Part shown: one piece after another, positions 1 through 63,936 of the stretch
Layout: each line of letters opens with the position of its first letter
How positions within the stretch are numbered: the first letter of the stretch is position 1
From: Pempheris klunzingeri
Taxonomy: Eukaryota; Chordata; Actinopteri; Acropomatiformes; Pempheridae
Direction: 5' to 3'
Length of the DNA stretch: 64,000 nucleotides
Assembly: GCF_042242105.1 (NCBI RefSeq)
Contig: NC_092019.1
Span: forward strand, 17,777,328 to 17,841,327
Made by a program: the position numbers and the translations under genes
Notes under the pieces: model-generated
What the model was told of the DNA's origin: nothing
Database searches by the model: none
Seen by the model: the letters and a program-made list of their open reading frames with translations, nothing else

Positions 1-590
1 GTTTTGATTTTTTGCCATGCTCAGATGACTCAATGGAGGTATTGTCTAAGATACCACAATAACTACAGGCTGGAGGCCGGAAATTTTGTACAAACTTTCA
101 TGCTCCCAAAATTATGCATCCTAATGACTTTAGTGATGCTCTGGCTGATGGATTGTGATGAAATTTGGTTCAGACAATCATGTTTCCCTCAGGAAGAGTT
201 GTAAATGTTTTGTCAAATAATTTGGTTTATGACTAAATACTTGAAAAAGTAATGTACTTTCAGTATAGACCTAAATAGCAAATGTTAACATGCTAACACA
301 ATAAATTAAGGTGGCGAACATGGTAGACATTAAAGTATTAACATTGCCAATTTAAGACCTTTTGGGGTCAGATATAGATTTCAAAGTTTTTTAGCTTTAG
401 CATTAGCTTTCAGTCATTTAACCCAACTCTAAACTTAATGAAGATGATTAAAAGTGTAACATCATACCTGCTAAACATCAGCACATTAGCATTGTCGTTC
501 TAAGTATATGAGCATGCTGACTTTAGCATTTAGCTCAGAGCACTGCTGTGTCTAAGCATTAGCATGTCTTTACGGTCTTAGAAATGTGGC
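1..590. repeat. teleost interspersed repeat relic
   Basis: Phrases such as ATTTGGTTCAGACA, catgtttccctcaggaa and repeated TTAGCATTAGC / CATGCTAACA are characteristic of a very common fish repeat. Related pieces occur at 12130-12780 and 62150-62240 in this window. Confidence 0.5.
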
Positions 591-997
591 CTCTACAGTG
601 TTTGAATTTTACCATTTGAATATGCCAATTTTGAGCCCTTGAAATTGGATTTGACGTTGAGGAGAAAGTGGGAACCCTGTGACTGTCGTCCTCTCCCATC
701 TGTCTCTCTCCCGCCCAGCTCACGCCCTCCCCTCCCCTCCCCTCCCTGTTTCTCTTGTGTCTTTGTTTTGGCTCGCCCCACTCGCACCTCGTCTGTGTTT
801 GTGTCTCACTGTATTAATAGTGTGATGGTAATGTCTGGCATGTGTATTAACAGTGGCCTCCCATATCCCTGTCTCCCTCTTTCCCCGCTCTCTCTATCTC
901 CACCTCCCCTCGGCTTTCTCATTCATCCTTGCTCGTCTGTGTCCACCCCACCCCTCTCCCCTCCCTGTCCGTCTCCACCCTTGACCCTTAACCCCAG

Positions 998-1076
998 AAC
1001 GGCACCCATAACCAGGACCTGTTGGTGTGTGCGTGTGCTGTGGGAGTTGCCACCTGTTTTGCTGCTCCCGTGGGAG
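998..1076 (+). CDS. clcn1: clcn1 exon 7a, alternative exon for helix G
   Basis: A 79-nt open exon begins after CCCCAG and ends before GCAAGT. It encodes [16 protein letters not shown] then [10 protein letters not shown] plus one base. It starts in phase 0 and ends in phase 1, exactly like exon 7 downstream, and shares 12 of 26 residues with it, including the CAVGV core. Its FAAP ending looks more like ClC-2 and ClC-K than ClC-1. Using both exons, or neither, shifts the frame into a stop in exon 8, so it must replace exon 7. The position matches mammalian Clcn1 exon 7a. The donor is GC rather than GT. Confidence 0.82.
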
Positions 1077-4000
1077 GCAAGTCCCGCCCTGCTCTCTCCC
1101 ACCCCCCGACCTGCTCAGTCACAGGTCTCTGGTCAGCTTTGTCCTCCTGAAATAACATCAAGAACACAAACGAGGATATTAAATCTGACCTCAGACCAGT
1201 GCCCTGCATTACAAGTGATGAATATTTAACCATGCAGATTAACCTGTCAGTAATACTGTAGCTTCTGACTACTTTAAAGGACTAGGTCAATATTTTGGGA
1301 ACATTTACATTTATTTGCTTTTCTACTGAGAATGAGAATGAGACACCATTCTTATGTGTGTATGCTAAATATGAGCCAGCAGGTAGCTAATTAGCTTAGC
1401 TTAGCATAAGGACCAAAAGCAGGAGAGCAGTTAGCCTGGCTCGATCCGAAGGTAAAAAAAACCTGCCAGTATTTCTCTAAAGTATTCTAATTAATGCTGC
1501 ACACGTCATATTGTTCAGAAGGCTGATATGTGCAGCTGCAGGGATGACCATTCAGCCTCCAAGATGAAATCTGAGTAGCTTAGTCAGGTAAATAGCTTTT
1601 GGATAAAGCCAAGCTAGCTGTCTCCCTCTGCTTCCAGTCTTTATGCTACTGTATGCTGATGTAACTCTTGACAGGAAAACAAATGAATGTATTTCGCAAA
1701 ATGTTGAACTTCCCCCGAAGTGTCTGGCATCAGCAGCGATGAATTCAAGGTGAATAAATATTTGTTGCAGATTATCTTGTACATGAGCCTTGAATTATAA
1801 CGTTCTTTCTGCTGTTTGGCTTTTTCTGAAGCAGTGAGCTTCAAGGTTTTCCACCTTCTGAGTGAGTCGCAGGTAAAAAAATATAAATTGAATACAAAAT
1901 ACATAATGCAACAAAGTCACAGGTCATAAAGACAATCGCTCAACTCAACTCAACGATTTTATAAAGTTACACAAAACCTTATAATTCAAGGAAATATTTG
2001 ATCTCTGAAACCTTTCATTTTCGGTGTGCAATCAGCTGCCGCGATCTCCGAGGACGATGTTTGTTTCTGTCCTGATTAATTGTTTCTTCTAAGTCTAATT
2101 ACTTTTGGGGTGTGCATGCTCTGCTTCATATTCTCTTGATGTGATTTTTTTTACCCTTCTTTATCACTTTTTTTAACCACACTCCAGTGAGCATTATTTA
2201 TTCACTTTATTCCATTTTGCTTCCCCTCTGTCAATTCTCCCCCCCCCATGGTTCCCCATCCTGTCCTCTCCACCTTGATCTTTTATTCTCTCTTTCTCCA
2301 ACTCACTCTCCTGTCTTTCTGTCTACGTTTCGTCACTCGTTGCTTTCATTTCCCCCCTTCATCATCCTCACACCTTTTATCCCTCATTGTGTCTCTCACC
2401 CCTTTATTTCCCTCCTGTTTTGTCCTCTCCCTCTCTGTTTTCTGTGTCAGTAGAACCCTTATGGTTACACAGATATTCTGACTGTTGGCTGTGCCGTGGG
2501 GGTGGGATGCTGTTTCGGCACTCCACTAGGAGGTACTGTACAACCTGCACACTGACTCGTACAACCAAAACTACTGCACCAAACATCCCCTGAACTGAAT
2601 CAATACTGTACTGAGGCTGCAACAACTGAAATGTGTCAGTAGCACGGGATATGGGAAACCATACGATATTACTCCTGGTGGAGTTATTCCCTGATTTAAT
2701 TTAGGATTCATCTCTCAACCATCTATTTACACAAATATAGCTTAACATAGTCAAATGTTTTTGTTTAAAGCAGTATGACCAGCATATATACTGAGACAAG
2801 GCTTTTTATAGTTGACAATAAATTTGTCAGTTCTCACTGGTGGACAACTACAACACCAATAGTCAGGTTTCTAAATGATCCCAGACTTTCAGTATATGTG
2901 GTATATCTGTATGCAGTCACCTATTGGCTGATTTACACTGATACTATAATGTCCAAAATAAGCTATCAGTGTATGGTCCTGGCCAATTTATCCAGCCAGC
3001 CCTATTAAAGAGTAGCTTTACTCTCCCTTCTGACCTTCAGTGGTTTAACCCCTCACCTCGCTGCAGTGATGAACAGGTGTACTCCAGGACCCTGTGACGT
3101 CACCATTGGGTGTGATCACAGGTACAGCAAAGCAGACGTCTGGCCACATACAACCAGTCAGAGGTGGAACAGGCTTGAAACTCTTTGCTTTACAGCCTGA
3201 AATTATGCTACTATTCAAAGTTAGACATACTTTGTTAAATGGAAAAAGGGGGATGTTGAAACCATGTTTTTTGTCAAAAAAAACAGTATTGATTGTATAA
3301 AAAAAATCACCTGTCATCTCAGAGCTACTGGATTTGTGTACCTCTTTTTGAAGTCATCTTCTCATGACCTTGAGAGTTAGTCAGGCCCTGACAAAAAATA
3401 CACTAAATTATAGGTGACATGATCATAATTCACTGTAACACTTTCAATATTCTTCTGCTCATACAGTATTTATGAAAACATACTAGGTGCACCTGTATGA
3501 ACGACATGTTTCACCACAGGCTTCATTTGGCTTTATTTATAATATTCTTGCAAAAGCAACAATAAATAACCTCAGCTGAGCATTCAACCCACTTTAATTA
3601 CAAACACACGTACTTAATAGCTACTACAGGAAAACTAGAACTGCAGCTATTAATCTAACCCCTAACTGGTGCTGAGAAGAGAGTATCTCTTTTCATGTCC
3701 ATCTCAGCTGCAGATGTTCACATGCATTTTCCACCAATCAACAGAAAATTAACTGGCAGCAATTTTGATAAGTGACTAACCTTTTAATTAATTTTATAAT
3801 CAATAATGCCAGAAATCCTTTGGTTCCATCATCATCTTTTGTGTTTATTCTCTATGGTGGGTAATCTGTGGGGATTGGACTGGTGATCAGAGAAAACTAC
3901 AAATTAGAATAGGTCGGCTTCTACTCTGGGAAATACTCCCACTATTTTCTGATGTTTTATAGAACAAATGATTTACTGATAATGAAAATGCTCAACATCT

Positions 4001-5758
4001 ATAAATGTGCAAAAGTCCCTCGATATGCATGAGCCAAAAAAAGAGCCCAGTTTTCAATCACCATAGAAAGGAAAAAATCCACTAATGACATATTGTTGGT
4101 CTTTATTCTATCTTCTGTTCAGCTGTTTTCATCTTGTTCACAATAATGTTTCTGATGGCTCTGATGTTTATTTCATTGCTTCACACGCTGATTATACCCC
4201 TGTGTGTGTATGTGTGTGTTTATGTGTGTGTTTGAGAGAATGTGTGTGTATTCATTCCCTGTGGTTCTCCTGTTGTGTATAATTACACCCTCAGCTTCAA
4301 GTGTTTTTGGACTCATTCTGCTATTTAACTCATTTCTGTCGCCTTTCTCTCTCCCTCTCTCTCTGTCTCCTCCTCCCCCTCCTCTGTCTTTCTTTCCCCT
4401 CCTATTCCTCCTCTCTTATTTCTCACACTATCCATCTTTATTTTTCCACTTCTCTTCATCCCTCCTTTCCCTGACCCCCCCTCCTCTCTCTCTCTCTCTC
4501 TCTCTCTCTCCCCACTACCAGGGGTGTTGTTTAGTATTGAGGTCACGTCTACCTACTTTGCGGTGAGGAATTACTGGCGGGGATATTTTGCCGCCACATT
4601 CAGCGCCTTCATATTCAGGGTGCTCTCTGTTTGGAACAAGGATGCTGGTGAGGAGCAGAGCAGACACACACTTAACACACACACACACACACGTGCACTG
4701 TTGTAAAAGACTGCTGAACCGGCATTTTATGGAAAGTAGCTGAATATGACAGCTAAGTAACATTTGCTTCTTAAGATAAACCAGACGTCATCACCTACAG
4801 TGTACTCACAATCCACCAGCACTAAAGAATAAAATAGATTCACTGTCCAGCACCAAGAGGCAGACAGACACATTTAGCAATGACCTGATAAACACAGTGG
4901 AGCCAGATATTTCCCTCAGGAGCTGGTGGAGACCAAAACAGAGCTAAGATTAGCGTGACCGTTGGACTTAAGTTAATCAGTTTGGCACAAACACGACTGT
5001 TTGATGTTTATAGTTTCTTTGTCACATGTTTTTTTTTCTCAGTGACAATCACAGCTCTCTTCAAAACTAACTTTCGGATGGATTTCCCCTTTGACCTGCA
5101 GGAGCTGCCTGCATTTGCAATAATAGGGTGAGGATATTAAGGACAGTGTGCTTATGTGTGTGAAATTGAGCAATGGTGTATTCTCTGTATCTAAGTACTA
5201 AGTAAGTTTTTTTTCTCATGTTTTAGGATCTCGTGTGGCTTCCTGGGGGCGTTCTTCGTCTACCTGAACAGACAGGTGGTTCTTTTCATGAGAAGACCGA
5301 CGGCACTCACACGCTTCCTGACCAAACAGTGAGATCCCAACACACACAAACACAACCGTGGACTTCCTGCTGCGGTGGATTAATGTGGCGCTCTTAAACC
5401 ACAGTATTTCAGGGTAGCAGACGTTGTTCCAAGGAACTCAAACCATTTGTGCATTCAAACCCAATTCCTCTTAATGTATCTCAGCTCCATTCTCCCAAGT
5501 CATCAGTCTCACAACGTTGGCCAGGACAGCAGCAAAGCCTTAACAGCCTTTCAGCCAGTTATTCACTCAATGTGGAGATTCACTTATCCTCTGAGACTCA
5601 GCGGTCAGGGAACATTAGTCTCCACCATTAGAGAGAGGCGAGCAGCAGCACCAGGAGAGTCGTACCATCAGTGGTGGTACACAGTTACTTCTGTCACAAA
5701 CACCAGTTATTTTTCATTGTTATAGGTTCCTAAGAATACACTGGGCCACACACTAATC

Positions 5759-5811
<53 letters not shown>

Positions 5812-8800
5812 CCAGTCGATTGATCTATCCAGGTGCAGTGACACTGATCATCGCCACCCTCACGTTTCCTCCTGGATTTGGACAGTTTATGGCTGGAGAG
5901 GTCAGGTTGAATCAATCTCACGCTCTCTGACTTCTTGTTGATGTGTGTCTTGTCCGTTAATATCTAGATTGTGTTGTTTTTGTCATGTTATACATCACCG
6001 TGCATGGAAGCAAAAAATGGTTGTAATGATTTATATGCAATCTAAAGAAATCTGCTGATTTTGCATATCAAAGTCTGTTTGCAGATCTTAGGGAGTAGAA
6101 CTACATATGTGAAATGCCTATGCTTCGTGCTGCTTGGGGCTGAAGACTACGAGTTTGAAAATGATAAAAACTCCAGATTTTTTTGACTAGGGAGGAAAAT
6201 GCATGGGTTTAAAAAAGACAGTATCTCTGGCTCTGCAGCGATTTTGACTATTTCAAAACTATCCATCAAGATGCCAACAATATTTTAGTAATGCTAAATC
6301 ACTCTTTACCTACCTGATTATGAAACATTGTTGAACGGCACTACACTACAGAGTTTAAACATTTCACTTTGAAAACTAACAATCAAAATTTATGTGCTCT
6401 GATTTCCACTCTCTGAAACTTCATGGAGGTAATTTCAAGTTGTGCAATTTGAAAAAGCCCAGATATTCTAGTTTGAATTTGTCATTTTGACTTGACCAAA
6501 AATGACCATTAATACAAGTAAGCAGAATACTGACCATGTGCACTGATACATTTTTTTAAATTAGATTTTTCTTTTTTCAATGTTAAACTATTCTGATTTT
6601 TGATAAAGCATCTGTAAGGCCATAGTCATGAGAGTCATGTGGAAAACTCAGTTTGTTTATGTGTGTCTGTACCCTCTGGCAGCTGATGCCCAGAGAGTGT
6701 ATCAACTCCCTGTTTGATAATTTCACCTGGACCAAAATCTCCGGATCTCCTGCTCCGCCTGGCCTGGGTCGCTCATCTGCATGGCTTCATCCACATGTCA
6801 GCGTCTTCGTAATCCTCCTCCTCTTCTGTGTCATGAAGGTATCTCTCCCTCTTGCTGTGTACTCTAGATGTTGCCTTGAAATATATGTGACAGCGTGAAA
6901 AACCTCTGGGATTGGTCTTGATCCAACCTTGATCCTGTTTTTGTGCTGCAGTTCTGGATGTCAGCAGTTTCCACCACGATGCCCATCCCCTCGGGCGCCT
7001 TTATGCCAGTGTTCATATTAGGTAAGAGGATTTTGTAATGCGAGTGCAGTATCTCCTGCTGAGCTTCACTTCAATTTGTCTTTACCAGCGTCTTATCTCT
7101 CTCCTCAAGGAGCCGCTTTCGGTCGCCTTGTAGGGGAGATCATGGCCACTCTTTTCCCAAATGGAATCCTGTTTGATGGGATAGTCTACCGCATCCTGCC
7201 GGGAGGTTATGCTGTCATTGGTCAGTCTACTTACCTCAGTGCCATGCTCAGGTTCCCACAGGCCTTGAGACTTATCAAGGCCTTGTAGATTTTAAAAAAT
7301 GCTTTGAATTAATGGCTTTGAAATTGCTTGAATTTATATGGCACCAGCATTCACCATTGTGGACTGCTGTCTGCCCTGGCATTTACAATTCTCTTCCACC
7401 AGTTCAAATATGTTGATTCAGCAGCAGTTTAGAAGCAGTTTCATCATTGCCACATGACTTGGTAGCATCTTTGGACAAAATGAGGCCTCTGTAATGTATG
7501 ATTTTGAATGTGACTTTGTAAATCTACTCAGAAACATTTGAATTTCCACAAATTAAACCTTTAAAGTCATTGAAAACTCTTGAATTTGATGTCCCACTCA
7601 GTGTTGTAACCCTGCTCTGTGTGTTTCAGCACAAAAGTGAATGGATTTCATCTTAACTGGATGTTATTATGAGTGATACTTTTTGCCCAGTATGTGCAGG
7701 GACAGGCTCCAGTCGCCCCAACTCTTAAAAAACAAAATAAAAAATAGATGGATGCGATAGACAGATATTTTTGATTCTTTAGATTTTGATTTTCTGCTTC
7801 CCAACAATGTTAAACCCACCATATAAAGTTTCAACTGTACTACATTATTTAAAAGTACAATGTTTTGAATTCAAATGGGATCTTTGTCAGACACAGAGGA
7901 GTCAGGAGGTGGAATACAAAGGAATAATACTTAACTTTTTCCACATGTCCTCTCCGTTGCTTCCTACCAGGTGCAGCTGCCATGACAGGAGCTGTCACAC
8001 ATACGGTTTCCACTGCAGTAATCTGCTTCGAGCTGACCGGTCAGATCTCTCACATCCTGCCCATGATGGTTGCCGTCATCTTAGCAAACATGGTGGCCCA
8101 GGGTCTGCAGCCTTCTCTCTACGACTCCATCATCCAAGTTAAGAAGCTGCCTTACCTGCCTGAGCTGGCCCTCGGGCACATCAGGTAAAGTTAAAACAGC
8201 GAGAACCATTTATTTTGAGTGATTACGTTTTCTTTAGAAGACAAAGGGTATTTATTGGTATCTCTGCATCACCAGCAAGTATAACATCTTTGTGGAGGAC
8301 ATCATGGTGCGCAAAGTGAAGTTCCTGTCTTCTCAGTCCAGCTACCGGGAACTTAACCATCTGCTAGAGAACACAACTCTAAAGACCATCCCCCTGGTCG
8401 ACTCTAAAGGTAGGGCGGGTGACTGATCGTTATATTGGTTCTTCATGCTTCTGTCTAGCTCCATAGATGCTTAGTGTCAGAGGAAGCATTTAAGCATTGA
8501 GGGAAATATGCTTATTTTCTCTCTTACCAAGAGTTAGATGAAGAGGAGGTTAGCTTTTCATAGTATACAGACTGGAAACAGGGGGAAGAGCCGGCCTGAC
8601 TTTGTCCAAAGGTAAAAAAAAATTGCCTACCAGCACCACTAAAGCTTGCTAATTAACACGTTAGAGCCTCCAGGAAATCACAGCTCCCAGCCAAGAAGTA
8701 GTCACACTCATTGACTTTGATTTTATCCACTTTTGTGTTTGATTTTGTATGGATTAAATTAACATGTTATAATGAGTAATTTAGTGCGCTTTTTTTTTTT

Positions 8801-11492
8801 ATCCTTCGAACAGAGCCAAGTTAGTTGTTTCCAGTCTTAATGCTAAATTAAGCTAAAGCCCTGCTGGCTGTAGCTTCATATTTTAACTTACACACATGAG
8901 AGTTGTATGGATCTTCTCATCTAAGTCCAAGAAAGAAAACAAACATTTTCCAAAATGTTAAACATTTTTCTCTGCAGAATCCATGATTCTTCTGGGCTCC
9001 ATCGAGAGGACGGAGCTTCAAGCCGTCTTTGACTGGTGGCTCTCGCCAGAAAGGCGAGTCTTTGAAAGAGGTCAGAGCTCACCAGGTCAGGGATCCAAAG
9101 TCAGTTGGGAGTCCTTCACCTTCGTAGATGAGGAGGGCGGAGCAGAGGGCGCAGAAAAGGTGCAAAAAACAAATCATAAATCAACCTACAGGAAGTTGGC
9201 GTAAAAAAAAAAAAAGATGCAGTTAACAGCTATGTTGTGCCTTCAGACTGGTCCAGTACAGGAGGAATGTAACGGGCCCATGCCTTCCCCCAAACCTCAG
9301 GAGCCCTCCACCAACCACACAGGCTCAGGTAACATGACATTTCCACTGCACATAAAGACAAGGCCACCCATCAAATGTCGCTTCTCTTCTCTTACATGTG
9401 TTGCCATACCATGTCCTCAGACAAGCGCAAGCTGCCGTCTGTCAGGAGGACCCTTCAGAGACTCTTCTCCTCCACGTCTTCGTCAGGCCAGGCTGAAACT
9501 CAGGTACACTGCTAGGATCAACCTCACATTCCCATCTCTTTGACCCCAAAAGCTCAAAGCGCATCACTGATGTGCTGTCGAGCTGGCAGTGACAGCTCAG
9601 ACAGGGGCATCAGTCCAACATGGCAGCTTGAGCCAACCTGGCTAATGTGATGGGAGAAGCGTGACATGATGCATACATACAGGAGTTGACATGTTTTGCA
9701 GTGGGTGATGACATAAAACCACCAGGGGTCATCTTATCATCATCTGTGTAGCTTTTTCAAACTGACTGCATGCCCACCCATCTGTCCCCCGCTCTTTCTT
9801 TCCCCCATCTTTACTCAGGAGACCACGGCCCCTCCTTTGTCGGACACCATGTCCCCCGAGGAGGTACTTCACCTTATTGATTCAGCATTCACACAGCCAA
9901 TAATGACACATTCAAACCATCCAAATGAATAGTTAGAAACTCTGTGTGCTCTGAGTCCATCTCTCTGCCTTGTGATTGGCTGATGCAGATCAAAGCCTGG
10001 GAAGAGGAAGAGCTGGATAAGCCAATCGATATGGAGCAGATACGTATAGACCCCTCCCCATTTCAGCTGGTGGAAAGAACGTCTCTGCACAAGGTGACAA
10101 CACCAGGGTGACATGTCATCACATGCAAATATCATGCTCAGTCACCGATTATGCAATTATGAGTCATGAACAATTACAATTTCATATTTCCACCAGCAGA
10201 TTTTAAAGGAATATTTAGAGGACGACTATTTTTAAGGCATTTTGAAGGAACTAAAACTTGTCAAACTTTGTTCTGTTTGTATTCTTCTGTCCTAACTTTA
10301 ATTTTTCAATGTTTTAAAGGAGTCTCCGTAGACAGATGAATAACGTCCTCTGTGGCTCTAGAATGAGCTTTCCAAACTCTGACAGAATAACCCTGATGAT
10401 TTCGGCTTGAGTTTAAGTTTTTAACAGAGAGCCAAAGTTTCAAACACAGATGTCAGTACGTCTCAGCCAATGCAATGCAATGATAAATTGATAAGTGTCA
10501 ATCAGTGTGACTCACGCTGTGTAGCAAAAGCCATATATTTCCTCTTTTACTTGCAGAGAAATTGTTTACGAGGAACAGTGCAGCCATGCAAGCAGCGTGC
10601 TGTCACACTACAATACATTTAACACTAACTGGATCATGTCCTCCTCTCTCTCATTACTCAGACCCACACTCTGTTCTCTCTGCTGGGTCTCAGTCACGCC
10701 TATGTCACCAGTATTGGAAAGCTGGTGGGTGTCGTTGCACTGAAAGAGGTAAAGTCGTGTTTTTTTCTCCTCATTTTTTTCTTTATCTGCATGTATTTGT
10801 CACCTCTCTTGGTTTGATCCTGTAATGCGGCATGACAGCGAGAGATGTGATGATCTCACACTGTGGGCAGTTGTTCTGTCACAGGGTGCATCATGCTTTA
10901 TGCTCTGAATCATGCAGTTATTCCATTAACCGCCCTCAACTCATCTCCTTGGATGTTCACTGTAGCAATCCTACATTGTCACTTCAACACGTTTCAGCCT
11001 CGCTCTCTCCTCCAACAGTTACAGAAAGCTATAGAGGGCTCAACCCGCAGCGGGGTGAGGCTTCGTCCCCCTTTGGCCAGCTTCAGAGATGCCAGCAGGA
11101 AAACCAAGAAGCACCAGCCTCCTTCCTCGTCCACCCCTTCCTCCCCCACTCGGGACAGAGACATGTGGGGGGAGGGGAGCAGGAGGGAGGGTGAGCTTGT
11201 GAGGAAGGAGTCCAAGGAGGATTCCCGAGAGAAGGCATCATCTTCCAGAGGAGCTCCCGGGTGCGACACTGCTCCCCCCTCCCCCACCAGCATTGGGGGC
11301 ACCAGTGGCAGCTCTGCCACCACAAGAGGAGCTGACGCTGCTTCGCAAGAGCCAGCGTCGCCATCTACCTCCTCCCCTACCTCACCTTCACCTCCTGCCT
11401 CCCCCGTGTCACCGACCAGCCCTGTCCTCACACTATCCTCGCTGCAGGAGGAGAGGGAGAGGGAGAGCGAGGAGTCAGATGAGCCCATATAG
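998..11492 (+). CDS. clcn1: clcn1: ClC-1 type voltage-gated chloride channel (5' part outside window)
   Basis: Plasma-membrane Cl- channel of the CLC family; ClC-1 sets resting conductance of skeletal muscle and works as a homodimer with two pores. Exons 7 to 23 (2454-2532, 4522-4647, 5043-5127, 5227-5328, 5816-5900, 6683-6838, 6952-7021, 7110-7220, 7971-8184, 8276-8409, 8978-9159, 9247-9328, 9421-9503, 9819-9863, 9989-10093, 10662-10748, 11019-11492) join in phase to 739 residues plus stop. Visible are helices G to R, the GAFMP selectivity motif (exon 13), the SLYDSI pore tyrosine (exon 15) and two CBS domains (exons 16-17 and 21-23). ClC-1 rather than ClC-2 is favoured by EVTSTYF, RMDFPF, MAGELMPRE and an ESFTFVDEE tract. 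The N-terminus and the GSGIP and GKEGP motifs lie before the window. Which teleost co-orthologue (clcn1a or clcn1b) cannot be told. Confidence 0.95.
1035..1115 (+). promoter_or_regulatory. YGCY cluster in and after exon 7a (possible MBNL sites)
   Basis: TGCT tetramers preceded by pyrimidine or G occur at 1035, 1060, 1063, 1090 and 1112, that is within the second half of exon 7a and just after its donor. MBNL proteins bind YGCY in RNA and repress exon 7a in mammalian Clcn1. Function here is inferred only. Confidence 0.35.
1280..1713. repeat. MITE-like fold-back element, copy 1 (clcn1 intron)
   Basis: Ends are inverted complements (TTTTGGGAACATTTAC near 1292, cgcaaaatgttgaac near 1695). The interior has AGCTTAGCTTAGCATAAG and CTTCCAGTCTTTATGCTA, shared with the copies at 8499-8963 and 25385-25850. 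Confidence 0.6.
2454..2532 (+). CDS. clcn1: clcn1 exon 7 (canonical), helix G
   Basis: 79 nt, phase 0 to phase 1, encoding [16 protein letters not shown] and [10 protein letters not shown], nearly the mammalian ClC-1 sequence. The start is set by the TAG of a CAGTAG double acceptor; use of the first AG would put an in-frame TAG stop at the exon start. The donor is GAG|GTACTG. Confidence 0.93.
4522..4647 (+). CDS. clcn1: clcn1 exon 8, helices H and I
   Basis: 126 nt, phase 1 in and out. Encodes [20 protein letters not shown] and the following helix I up to WNKDA. Preceded by a long CT-rich tract that serves as pyrimidine tract; donor GCTG|GTGAGG. Confidence 0.96.
5043..5127 (+). CDS. clcn1: clcn1 exon 9
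   Basis: 85 nt, phase 1 to 2. Encodes [20 protein letters not shown] and ELPAFAII at the start of helix J. The RMDFPF motif distinguishes ClC-1 from ClC-2 (RLDFPF). Confidence 0.96.
5227..5328 (+). CDS. clcn1: clcn1 exon 10, helix J
   Basis: 102 nt, phase 2 in and out. Encodes [18 protein letters not shown] followed by a short basic linker ([13 protein letters not shown]). Donor CA|GTGAGA. Confidence 0.95.
5761..5808 (+). repeat. (TG)24 microsatellite before clcn1 exon 11
   Basis: Perfect TG repeat ending seven bases before exon 11. Confidence 0.97.
5816..5900 (+). CDS. clcn1: clcn1 exon 11, helix K
   Basis: 85 nt, phase 2 to 0. Encodes [20 protein letters not shown] and FGQFMAGE. The acceptor lies only seven bases after a (TG)24 repeat. 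Confidence 0.95.
6683..6838 (+). CDS. clcn1: clcn1 exon 12, helices L and M
   Basis: 156 nt, phase 0 in and out. Encodes [16 protein letters not shown], an extracellular loop rich in Ser and Pro, then hydrophobic [12 protein letters not shown]. Confidence 0.95.
6952..7021 (+). CDS. clcn1: clcn1 exon 13, GxFxP selectivity motif
   Basis: 70 nt, phase 0 to 1. Encodes [20 protein letters not shown] and FIL. GAFMP is the Cl--coordinating GxFxP motif at the start of helix N; the residue before it is Ser where human ClC-1 has Cys. Confidence 0.95.
7110..7220 (+). CDS. clcn1: clcn1 exon 14, helices N and O
   Basis: 111 nt, phase 1 in and out. Encodes [20 protein letters not shown] then [17 protein letters not shown], close to mammalian ClC-1. 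Confidence 0.96.
7650..7765 (-). repeat. L2-like LINE 3' tail fragment (degenerate)
   Basis: GGGACAGGCTCCAGTCGCC followed by an A-rich stretch and ATAGATGGATG is the reverse-oriented, degraded form of the tail seen at 21411-21541. Confidence 0.45.
7971..8184 (+). CDS. clcn1: clcn1 exon 15, helices O to R, pore tyrosine
   Basis: 214 nt, phase 1 to 2. Encodes [20 protein letters not shown], the [18 protein letters not shown] segment with the inner pore Tyr, and [14 protein letters not shown] leading to the cytoplasmic domain. Confidence 0.97.
8276..8409 (+). CDS. clcn1: clcn1 exon 16, start of CBS1
   Basis: 134 nt, phase 2 to 1. Encodes [17 protein letters not shown] and a CBS1 helix ending in TIPLVDSK. 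Confidence 0.95.
8499..8963. repeat. MITE-like fold-back element, copy 2 (clcn1 intron 16)
   Basis: GGGAAATATGCTTATTTTCT at the left is roughly inverted at the right end (gaaagaaaacaaacattttcc). Interior phrases CCTGACTTTGTCCAAAGGTA and TTTCCAGTCTTAATGCTA match the other copies. The right end sits next to the exon 17 acceptor. Confidence 0.65.
8978..9159 (+). CDS. clcn1: clcn1 exon 17, end of CBS1 and linker
   Basis: 182 nt, phase 1 to 0. Encodes [20 protein letters not shown] and a linker containing [11 protein letters not shown], matching the acidic FVDED tract of mammalian ClC-1. A MITE-like repeat ends about 15 bases before the acceptor. Confidence 0.94.
9247..9328 (+). CDS. clcn1: clcn1 exon 18, CBS linker
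   Basis: 82 nt, phase 0 to 1. Encodes the Pro-rich linker [18 protein letters not shown], similar to the EEPNGPLP tract of human ClC-1. Confidence 0.85.
9421..9503 (+). CDS. clcn1: clcn1 exon 19, basic linker
   Basis: 83 nt, phase 1 to 0. Encodes [20 protein letters not shown], a basic, probably disordered linker between the CBS domains. Both borders and the phases fit. Confidence 0.85.
9819..9863 (+). CDS. clcn1: clcn1 exon 20 (45 nt)
   Basis: Encodes [15 protein letters not shown], phase 0 on both sides. The MSPEE motif just before CBS2 is conserved in ClC-1 and ClC-2. Skipping it would keep the frame. Confidence 0.9.
9989..10093 (+). CDS. clcn1: clcn1 exon 21, start of CBS2
   Basis: 105 nt, phase 0. 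Encodes [20 protein letters not shown] then [15 protein letters not shown], typical of the CBS2 entry. Confidence 0.95.
10662..10748 (+). CDS. clcn1: clcn1 exon 22, CBS2
   Basis: 87 nt, phase 0. Encodes [20 protein letters not shown] and LVGVVALKE, the CBS2 core. Confidence 0.95.
11019..11492 (+). CDS. clcn1: clcn1 exon 23, C-terminus and stop
   Basis: The last coding exon begins [20 protein letters not shown], the end of CBS2, followed by about 125 residues rich in Ser, Pro, Glu and Lys ending SEESDEPI and a TAG at 11490-11492. The tail is low complexity and diverges from mammals, as is usual for this family. Confidence 0.94.
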   Translation, partial: LQKAIEGSTRSGVRLRPPLASFRDASRKTKKHQPPSSSTPSSPTRDRDMWGEGSRREGELVRKESKEDSREKASSSRGAPGCDTAPPSPTSIGGTSGSSATTRGADAASQEPASPSTSSPTSPSPPASPVSPTSPVLTLSSLQEERERESEESDEPI

Positions 11493-51103: not shown

Positions 51104-56966
<5,863 letters not shown>

Positions 56967-61400: not shown

Positions 61401-63936
61401 GTAAGCCTCAAGTGAAACACGATCGCAATGAATCTGGAATCTGCCATTTTGTCTTACTCTTCTCTCACTCTTTCTGCAGAGACTCCATGTCTCTCCCCAG
61501 CCTGTCAGTGGGCCTCAGCCCGCCTGTCCTCGTCTGCCGATCCCTTCACGCAGCCCTGTGATTACTTCCTGTTCACATGTGGATCTGACAGACTTTCACC
61601 AGACAGTGGAGGCGGGGGGAGACAAAGAGGTCAGGGCATCCCTGGACATCCACAGAACCGGAGGGGAAACGCTGTGTGGCCAGAGAGGAGAGGAAGAAGT
61701 AAAGAGATAGAAGACAGAGGGCTGAGAGAGGACAAAATACTGAACAGAAAAACTGTGCTGCTGCAGTATCTCAGGGAGATTTTAGGTAGGAGTCTGTAAT
61801 CAAAATATCCTCTAATGTATAATAGGTTCTGCACTGTATTGCTTTAAGCACTCATATTTCATCGTAGGAGAGTTTAATAGATGAATGTATTGGATGAGTT
61901 GTGTTTTTCTTGATCTGTCTGCCAGAATCAAACGACAGACCGGGAAACACAGCAGTGCAGAAGGCCAAAGGATTCTACCATTCCTGTTTGGACACCAAAT
62001 CCATAGAGAGTGCTGGTGCAGAGCCCTTCCTCACACTCATCCAGAAAGTGAGATAATTATCTGCCCTTACAATAAGGGCCTTGGGCTGATAAATAGGATT
62101 TTCAGCCACATGCGCAGCATGATGATGAAGCCTAATGATTTTGATTACCCTTGGACTTTCAGACCTCTAGCGCCACCATGAGCTTCACATTTGTGGTTTT
62201 TGAGTGAAAAATATCTCAACTGTTGCCATGTAATTCATGCCACACACATACATGCCCCCCTCAGTACACACTGAAATCACTTTGGTGATTCACCGACTTT
62301 TCATATAGCCACACCATCAGGTCAAAATTCTAATTTGTCCACTGCTTTAGTTTATGATGAAACACTTAAGGCATTAAGCTCAAAGCCTCACAGTGCACTA
62401 TTATTACTTATATTATTACAAGTAATTTGTTAGAACAACTGATTTTTCTGTTTGACAAAGGTATTTAGGAGCAGTACCTCACATATTTCTCCTGGTTGTC
62501 TCAGATTGAACATACATTATGTGTAAAGGGAACATGTTTAAAGTTTTGTCTATTGTAATATCTGTGGCCTCATTACTTCTGATAATCCCTGTTTGTATTT
62601 AATCTGTCTCCATCGCTCTCTCTCTCTGTGCAGCTGGGAGGCTGGGCAGTGTCAGGCCAGTGGAATCAGACTGATTTAAACTCAACCCTGAGTCTGCTAA
62701 TGAGAGACTACGCCACTTTTCCATTCTTCAACCTTTATGTGGGCAAAGACCCAAATGACATTGCCCGCGGGACAACCAAAAGATACATACAGGCCAGTAT
62801 CCATTAGGATAATTTGTTAGTCCTAACATGCTGGCAGGAGCACTGACAGAACAAAGTAGACTTTTGTGTTGTTGCTTTAACTCAAGTGTCCTCTTTGTCA
62901 ACAGATTGATCAGCCAGATCTGTTGATCCCGATTGAATGGAACAGCAAGACACATAAGTCTCAAGCTAAAACGCAGGTTGATGTCTGTGCCAACTAATCC
63001 AAGAAATATGCTTTAATGAAAACAATATTCTTCCATCCCTAATGCTAATGCATTCTGTTATCGTTGTCTTGTCTCTTTTCATCCAGACGCTACGTCCTTT
63101 CTTGGCTTCATGTCAGAGGTACCTGGCCCTGTTGGGGGCCCCGCCCAGCAGCAGCATGATCCACGTCGGCACGTTCATATCTCTGTCCTCCGAGCTTGCT
63201 GTGGCCGCTGCACCTCTGCACTATCGCCTGTCGAAAGGGCAGCTCTATCAGCGCATGACCATCAAAGAGCTACAGGTAATGGAGGAGGAGGCTGCGTCAC
63301 TATATAAACACACACGCACTGAATCCACTGTAGTGATTGATTTTCTTTATGTAAATATGTCAACAGAGCCAGGCCCCTGCCATCGACTGGTTGGGCTGTC
63401 TGCAGGCTGCTTTCCGTCCACTGTCCCTGATCGAAGATGATCCTGTCCTTCTGCATAACTTACCTTACATCGTGCAAATGTCCCGAATCATTGGCAAATG
63501 GCTGAACAAGCATGAGCTGAGCACCAGGTACTGTAAGTGACACAAAACAATGCACAATAAAAGATGTATGGGCTTTTCCTTTCCTCTGTTTTGACCTTGT
63601 GTTGCCACTTTGTATTCCACTCAGCGGCCCCCTTCATACTTACATGGTCCTCAATCTGCTGCACACCCTGACGCCCGCTCTAGACTCCAGATTTTCGGAA
63701 ACCGCAGAGAGTTTGTCTGCAGCTCTGGGTAACACTGAAGAGGTGAGTCAACACAGATGTAGCCATCTGTACTTGTTTAAACCATGACACCTATGAGTTG
63801 GTTTGTGGAGTCACATCTTCACTATGGGCCTTTTTACCAGGTAGCCCCTCGCTGGAAAGACTGTGTGTTAGAGACTGAGAGAGGATTTGAATTAGTTCTT
63901 ACAGACCTTCTCAGTGAGAGGACAGCACACAGAGAG
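61043..63936 (+). CDS. kel: kel: Kell-type M13 metallopeptidase homologue (3' part outside window)
   Basis: Type II membrane protein of the neprilysin/ECE family (M13). Nine exons are visible (61103-61400, 61480-61785, 61926-62047, 62634-62792, 62905-62976, 63087-63275, 63367-63527, 63625-63742, 63841-63936), joining in phase to 507 codons. A hydrophobic segment RRLLLFLGFSFCAATLGLIC precedes the ectodomain, which has the PC-x4-C and PCDYFLFTCG cysteines, GFYHSCLDTKSIESAG, LGGWAVSGQWNQTDLN, AIDWLGCLQAAF and LTPALDSRF, all best matched by Kell. The zinc motif HExxH would lie beyond the window, so activity cannot be judged. Start uncertain: ATG at 61043 (G at -3 and +4), or an unseen exon spliced to 61103. 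A different M13 member is possible, but synteny supports kel. Confidence 0.85.
61480..61785 (+). CDS. kel: kel exon, start of ectodomain
   Basis: 306 nt, phase 1 in and out. Encodes TPCLSPACQW, DPFTQPCDYFLFTCGSD, then a Gly/Arg-rich insert of about 45 residues not recognised in mammals, then KTVLLQYLREIL. Confidence 0.86.
61926..62047 (+). CDS. kel: kel exon, FYHSCLDT motif
   Basis: 122 nt, phase 1 to 0. Encodes AVQKAKGFYHSCLDTKSIES and AGAEPFLTLIQK, aligned with the FYNSCMDT region of Kell. Confidence 0.92.
62634..62792 (+). CDS. kel: kel exon, LGGW motif
   Basis: 159 nt, phase 0. Encodes LGGWAVSGQWNQTDLNSTLS (two N-glycosylation sequons) and FPFFNLYVGKDPND. The only in-frame donor is CAG|GCCAGT, a GC donor. 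Confidence 0.9.
62905..62976 (+). CDS. kel: kel exon, IDQP motif
   Basis: 72 nt, phase 0. Encodes IDQPDLLIPIEWNSKTHKSQ and AKTQ; human Kell has IDQPEFDVP here. Confidence 0.88.
63087..63275 (+). CDS. kel: kel exon
   Basis: 189 nt, phase 0. Encodes TLRPFLASCQRYLALLGAPP through LSKGQLYQRMTIKELQ, aligned with GKLFQMVTIDQLKEM of Kell. Confidence 0.92.
63367..63527 (+). CDS. kel: kel exon, AIDWL motif
   Basis: 161 nt, phase 0 to 2. Encodes SQAPAIDWLGCLQAAFRPLS and ends NKHELST. Donor AG|GTACTG keeps frame; a stronger-looking GTAAGT lies five bases on and would not. Confidence 0.9.
63625..63742 (+). CDS. kel: kel exon, TPALDSRF motif
   Basis: 118 nt, phase 2 to 0. Encodes GPLHTYMVLNLLHTLTPALD and SRFSETAESLSAALGNTEE. 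Confidence 0.92.
63841..63936 (+). CDS. kel: kel last exon in window
   Basis: 96 nt, phase 0. Encodes VAPRWKDCVLETERGFELVL and TDLLSERTAHRE; human Kell has RPRWMKCVEETG. The gene continues beyond the window. Confidence 0.9.

Follow-up and report, generated by a model that had tools for sequence, protein, structure and literature searches.

Exons 7a and 7 of fish clcn1 as a probable ancient tandem pair that includes the counterpart of the myotonic dystrophy exon

We analyzed a 64,000-nt stretch of the Pempheris klunzingeri genome (hereafter, the window), which holds exons 7a, 7 and 8 and the later coding exons of clcn1 on the + strand. Exons 7a and 7 of CLCN1 probably form a tandem pair of ancient origin, with three splice outputs. 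The order 6-7-8 would give the standard channel, 6-7a-8 an alternative full-length channel that may be made and used, and 6-7a-7-8 a frameshift with a stop in exon 8 here, followed by decay, so that joint inclusion would act as an off switch. Exon 7a would retain the older, ClC-2-like helix G segment, and exon 7 would be a diverged copy turned standard muscle form. The swap may alter gating, in teleosts through T277. The clcn1 features in the window are as follows.

957..997, + strand: polypyrimidine tract and exon 7a acceptor (..CCCTTAACCCCAG/), pyrimidine fraction 0.77 upstream of the acceptor
998..1076, + strand: exon 7a, 79 nt, 26 residues + 1 nt, putatively carrying the helix G segment in its older, ClC-2-like form
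1036..1066, + strand: four YGCY tetramers (1036, 1048, 1060, 1063), from mid exon 7a on
1077..1082, + strand: GC donor of exon 7a, GCAAGT, a sequence-based prediction
2448..2453, + strand: tandem acceptor CAGTAG of exon 7; the first AG, if used, adds an in-frame TAG ahead of exon 7
2454..2532, + strand: exon 7, 79 nt, 26 residues + 1 nt, putatively the derived FGTP version
4522..4647, + strand: exon 8, to which either 7 or 7a joins
4532..4534, + strand: TAG from joint inclusion of 7a and 7, 113 nt upstream of the exon 8 end
4564..4566, + strand: TGA from skipping both 7a and 7, 81 nt upstream of the exon 8 end
5043..11492, + strand: later clcn1 coding exons to the stop, frame open throughout and ending in TAG (exon numbers above 8 are running labels)
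+ strand, coding exons, part 1: 5043-5127, 5227-5328, 5816-5900, 6683-6838, 6952-7021
+ strand, coding exons, part 2: 7110-7220, 7971-8184, 8276-8409, 8978-9159, 9247-9328
+ strand, coding exons, part 3: 9421-9503, 9819-9863, 9989-10093, 10662-10748, 11019-11492

Among the fish ClC-1 proteins compared, the encoded chain matched Pempheris klunzingeri P0332 best (669/678 aligned residues). Exon 6 lies upstream of the window, and its phase was taken from other fish ClC-1 proteins (VYE/NGTH.. or ..E/NPYG.., the slash marking the exon boundary here and below). The first-pass annotation had described two 79-nt exons of the same phase with 12/26 residues in common, each reading in frame into exon 8, and we recovered this arrangement at 998-1076 and 2454-2532: besides length, phase and the 12/26 residues the two share 42/79 bases, and with either of them the chain is open for 739 residues, to the stop at 11492. 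Different codons are used at 7/12 of the common residues, as expected for an old duplicate.

Frame reading also reproduced the two stops given in that annotation, TAG at 4532-4534 when both exons are included and TGA at 4564-4566 when neither is; joint inclusion is thus non-productive by frame. Nonsense-mediated decay follows a 50-55 nt rule. As 113 and 81 nt separate the two stops from the exon 8 end and many introns come after it, decay of such mRNAs is expected. The further claim that exactly one of the two exons must be chosen is correct for a coding mRNA but not for splicing, as mammals include both and the spacing of 7a and exon 7 (1,377 nt) permits it; neither a short intron nor incompatible sites that would physically block joint splicing were found here. 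The choice of 7a or 7 is best read as exclusive through the reading frame, not through splicing.

The likeness of the two encoded segments stands far apart from the background. With BLOSUM62, 7a scored 63 against exon 7, and the runner-up among 36,526 open 26-codon windows, both strands counted, scored 24 (mean of the background against exon 7 -30.8, sd 11.1). Length and phase were dropped as an argument against chance, since about 1-4520 holds 20 AG-79 nt-G[TC] segments, six of them open in phase 0, both counts including 7a and 7.

The acceptors read CCCCAG (7a) and CAGTAG (7). The donor of 7a, overlooked in the first-pass annotation, is GC and not GT (GGAG/GCAAGT); GAG/GCAAGT agrees with CAG/GTAAGT at 7/9 positions, with mismatches solely at -3 and +2, and the exon 7 donor GAG/GTACTG is weak (5/9 to consensus). 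Judged from these motifs, the sites of the two exons appear to be of no incompatible kind, and the GC donor should be usable in principle. Both exons were present together in 7/349 proteins compared (four fishes, a snake, a titi monkey and a colugo), with 7a always ahead of 7. In 5/7 of these models the sequence continues beyond 7a as GGK.., which fits G/GYAAR after the exon; the gene finders may have run on past 7a since the donor there is GC as well.

By its start, length and place, the fish exon at 998-1076 is identified with exon 7a of myotonic dystrophy. In excerpts of PMC10082032, the mouse antisense oligo CCAGGCACGGT/ctgcaacagagaag marks the start of exon 7a; read on the other strand it gives ..gcag/ACC GTG CCT GG, that is TVPG, the first 7a residues in most mammals listed. 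The same excerpts give mouse RT-PCR products of 345 and 424 bp, and the difference sets mouse 7a at 79 nt. A 79-nt exon between exons 6 and 7 is represented here by 998-1076, upstream of exon 7 and with exon 6 itself outside the window, and the 7a peptides of fish, sauropsids and mammals aligned without gaps. The mouse oligo, together with the 7a-8 models found across vertebrates (below), supports the earlier proposal of a real alternative helix G exon as the ancestor of the mammalian poison exon.

The fish exon thus resembles that of mammalian CLCN1/Clcn1 in lying between exons 6 and 7, in its 79 nt, in the frameshift with 7 and in a homologous peptide, and it differs in C277T and the GC donor. 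The stop after joint inclusion falls in exon 8 in fish, whereas in mouse it is said to be in exon 7 (PMC10082032, in part). Joint splicing of 7a and 7 occurs in mammals according to excerpts of PMC10082032 and PMC10760957. Reviews, as excerpted, differ on the mechanism: 7a itself carries the stop in PMC7404189, its inclusion is in-frame in PMC13044900, and PMC10082032 and PMC12458930 describe a frameshift. Mammalian 7a is termed cryptic and frameshifting, not a twin of exon 7, in the excerpts of PMC10760957 and PMC12458930, and the open-access excerpts consulted, a scope outside which Mankodi 2002, Lueck 2007, Kino 2009 and Wheeler 2007 fall, nowhere described 7a and 7 as twins or credited 7a alone with keeping the frame.

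The carriers of 7a were sought with three protein queries, the 7a form (region 1-40; best 120 of 1,279 matches listed), a mammal-type 7a (best 120 of 2,086) and the exon 7 form (best 120 of 2,619, in order of similarity to exon 7 of this fish). Among the matches listed, ClC-1 models in which exon 8 directly follows 7a came from teleosts, from bonytongue and eel to percomorphs and including zebrafish isoform X2 (P0055), and from reedfish (P0088), squamates, birds, turtles, alligator, marsupials and placentals; most of these models are predictions, and such listings can hold intact-frame models alone. At the level of such models, the 7a reading frame is conserved in many vertebrates. In the models P0162 and P0165, the exon 8 that follows 7a is shortened. 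A 7a-bearing ClC-1 of shark, gar, coelacanth or amphibian was absent from the best 120 matches listed per search, a depth at which absence is not decisive.

Both forms were listed for 17 teleost species, and in 13 of them the 7a form and its best exon 7 partner were identical at all aligned residues of the next 317-350 (the other four pairs: 329/346, 343/346, 341/350 and 331/338), indicating that the 7a and 7 forms come from one gene. Beside these annotated models, which supply both isoform kinds for a single gene, stands one spliced-RNA contig with the 7a-8 junction. Its protein, P0089, has 421 aa with 6-7a-8 joined, and the contig of 1,376 bases covers many exons and must therefore be spliced RNA; it continues beyond exon 11 into expected intron sequence. 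Over its length P0089 is nearest to mouse lemur (340/359), and its source is probably a mammal. The source tag 'lgn' presumably denotes the Logan assemblies.

In rows chosen by hand from the listed matches, the mean pairwise identity over residues 265-284 of 7a was 0.950 (47 teleosts), 0.941 (15 mammals) and 0.925 (22 sauropsids). Identity between teleosts and amniotes was 0.606 in 7a, 0.863 upstream and 0.934 in exon 8, with segment borders off by one residue. The identity counts left out the both-exon models (P0002, P0003, P0039, P0085, P0077, P0123, P0136), models with bent edges (P0046, P0073, P0080-P0084, P0137, P0162, P0165), P0089, second models per species, and the sauropsids Anser brachyrhynchus, Falco tinnunculus, Otus sunia and Mauremys mutica; 13 vertebrate and 11 arthropod ClC-2 rows were kept and most others left out. 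A residue recount over all listed rows except the both-exon models and P0046, P0162 and P0165, in which the site is unreadable, left the trend unchanged.

The 7a of some mammals looks damaged, with FAAH in Cercocebus (P0132) and FAALLE in colugo (P0123), where 7a is joined in frame to exon 7; this could be decay of 7a in mammals. Among the matches listed, sauropsid entries without an isoform label use 7a and not 7 (P0151, P0152, P0155, P0159, P0160, P0164, P0167, P0169, P0171, P0173 and P0175, from gecko, goose, sparrow, parrot, cormorant, hawk, leatherback, kestrel, owl, prinia and pond turtle), and 7a may be the main or sole form in birds and turtles. The sauropsid 7a listed also has the exon 7-like states G280 (27/30 rows) and L283 (30/30).

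To order the two copies in time we compared them with ClC-2, carrying human ClC-1 residue numbers over by alignment. A270 and A281 were both present in all readable 7a rows listed (78 teleost, 19 mammal, 30 sauropsid) and in all ClC-2 rows listed (62/62 vertebrate, 34/34 arthropod), and in 0/118 of the exon 7 rows listed, which have G270 and T281; these exon 7 rows are nearly all from fish and were chosen by likeness, so their uniformity is partly selection. The exon 7 of titi, colugo and cobra, taken from fused models, matched the fish exon 7 states. T268 and V269 of exon 7 were absent from every listed ClC-2 row, and V268, nearly always present in the listed 7a, was not seen in the listed exon 7. 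Since A270 and A281 are common to 7a, vertebrate ClC-2 and arthropod ClC-2, exon 7 holds the derived states: FAAP (7a, ClC-2, arthropod channels) is, on this residue comparison, the older state and FGTP of exon 7 the derived one. In agreement with this order, 7a matched vertebrate ClC-2 at 14.7-17.2 of 26 residues and exon 7 at 11.9-13.1.

The ClC-2 segment, arthropod ClC-2 included, is like most 7a in A270, A280 and A281, and differs in that the form sits in another gene. The 7a/7 pair dates back at least to the ancestor common to ray-finned fish and amniotes. A tree of the 26 residues gave exon 7 a long branch (0.83, support 100) without placing the duplication; constrained and free trees had equal likelihood, the segment being too short to resolve the tree. 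In Poecilia latipinna, ClC-2b (P0122) carries the helix G segment, along with the first part of the exon after it, twice (CAVGLSSCFASPIGG and a 15-residue stretch), either a second case of twin exons or an assembly or model error.

A residue outside the FAAP motif may matter more in a teleost 7a-channel. Codon 277 is ACC in 7a and TGC in exon 7 of this fish, and among the matches listed 7a has T277 in 78/78 teleost rows with a readable site and C277 in the mammal (19), sauropsid (30) and reedfish rows. In teleosts, the exchange of the slow-gate-linked Cys277 for Thr may be a larger change than FAAP, and the slow gate of a teleost 7a-channel is expected to be weak and its block by zinc slight. 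In the source text as excerpted, C277Y lowers the current in human ClC-1, so site 277 is sensitive and a bad outcome of T277 is possible too. In amniotes, the swap would act via residues 268-270 and 280-283. Ser stands at the place of Cys277 in 33/34 arthropod ClC-2 rows listed; the same change weakens the slow gate in human ClC-1. An AlphaFold2 model of the 7a isoform (41-row alignment) was discarded (mean pLDDT 51.6; residues 173-301, the segment included, below 50).

We hold tentatively, as somewhat short of an even chance, the reading that 7a still serves as an alternative exon in bony vertebrates at large, mammals included, a 7a-for-7 channel of different slow gating (lacking the slow-gate Cys277 in teleosts) being made in some tissue or stage. 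A swap leaves the amplicon at the length of the exclusion product, so RT-PCR by product size would miss a 7a-channel in mammals, and the droplet assays excerpted from PMC10082032 target the 7a-7 and 6-7 junctions, where a swap would likewise not stand out. Long reads could show it, and the mouse data in the excerpted PMC12458930 describe 7a inclusion with no mention of a 7a-for-7 swap, which makes it less likely that the swap is common in mouse quadriceps. Those reads fit an account in which 7a is a regulated poison exon only, triggering decay with 7 and keeping ClC-1 low in embryonic muscle, its frame being a relic without any 7a-channel. The same account is favored by fetal muscle, in which the main ClC-1 form is said to include 7a with the channel lost (PMC10760957, in part), and by the position of the exon 8 stop ahead of many introns. 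An open frame would be superfluous in such an exon, yet over residues 265-284 the counted rows vary little and remain CLC-like, and 7a-8 joins recur in models of many species and in one spliced-RNA contig, both points subject to a bias toward open models; we regard the poison-only account as unlikely.

Much less likely still is an artefact of gene prediction, in which annotators take 7a for 7 by its ClC-2 likeness and the exon is unused in fish. Predicted models do make up most of the matches listed, and seven of them force both exons together with bent edges, but 7a is a real spliced exon in mouse and human (in the excerpted literature), its place, phase and length are conserved, and P0089 derives from spliced RNA. 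Separate duplications of exon 7 in fish and mammals would account for the first six 7a residues differing among groups; the shared place upstream of exon 7, the same length and phase, the A270, A281 and nearly always V268 common to the 7a groups and missing from exon 7, and the amniote-like core of reedfish 7a make such an origin hardly credible.

Control by MBNL was considered for the proposed 7a/7 choice. Exon 7a has four YGCY tetramers, which we take to be MBNL-type motifs, against 1.0 expected, and as many occur in 2.8% of 79-nt windows; they weakly hint at MBNL binding. The zebrafish evidence, from excerpts, is mixed: the CLCN1 orthologues were unchanged in mbnl mutants (PMC8246264), whereas an mbnl2 knockdown cited in PMC3882056 mis-spliced clcn1. 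In that paper, clcn1 splicing shifts in embryos with CUG-repeat DNA and not with the RNA, and the clcn1 variants named are exons 3 and 4, not 7a.

The proposed pair is similar to the mutually exclusive tandem exons of Nav and Cav genes, which are homologous neighbors matched in length and phase and exchange a single channel segment, and unlike them in that joint inclusion would double as an off switch. Two surveys of twin exons in human genes (PMC5740500, PMC9741552) make no mention of CLCN in their main texts. If 7a is an older twin with an intact frame, the disease form would be a failed twin choice and not a stray exon, deleting 7a may cost a genuine channel form as well, and slow gating could be studied in a natural ClC-1 that has a different helix G segment.

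Farther along the window, open frames lie at 55347-55715 and 61416-61796. They resemble, as we presume, exons of a zyxin-type LIM protein and an M13 (Kell/ECE-like) peptidase, an order that together with clcn1 recalls that of human 7q34.
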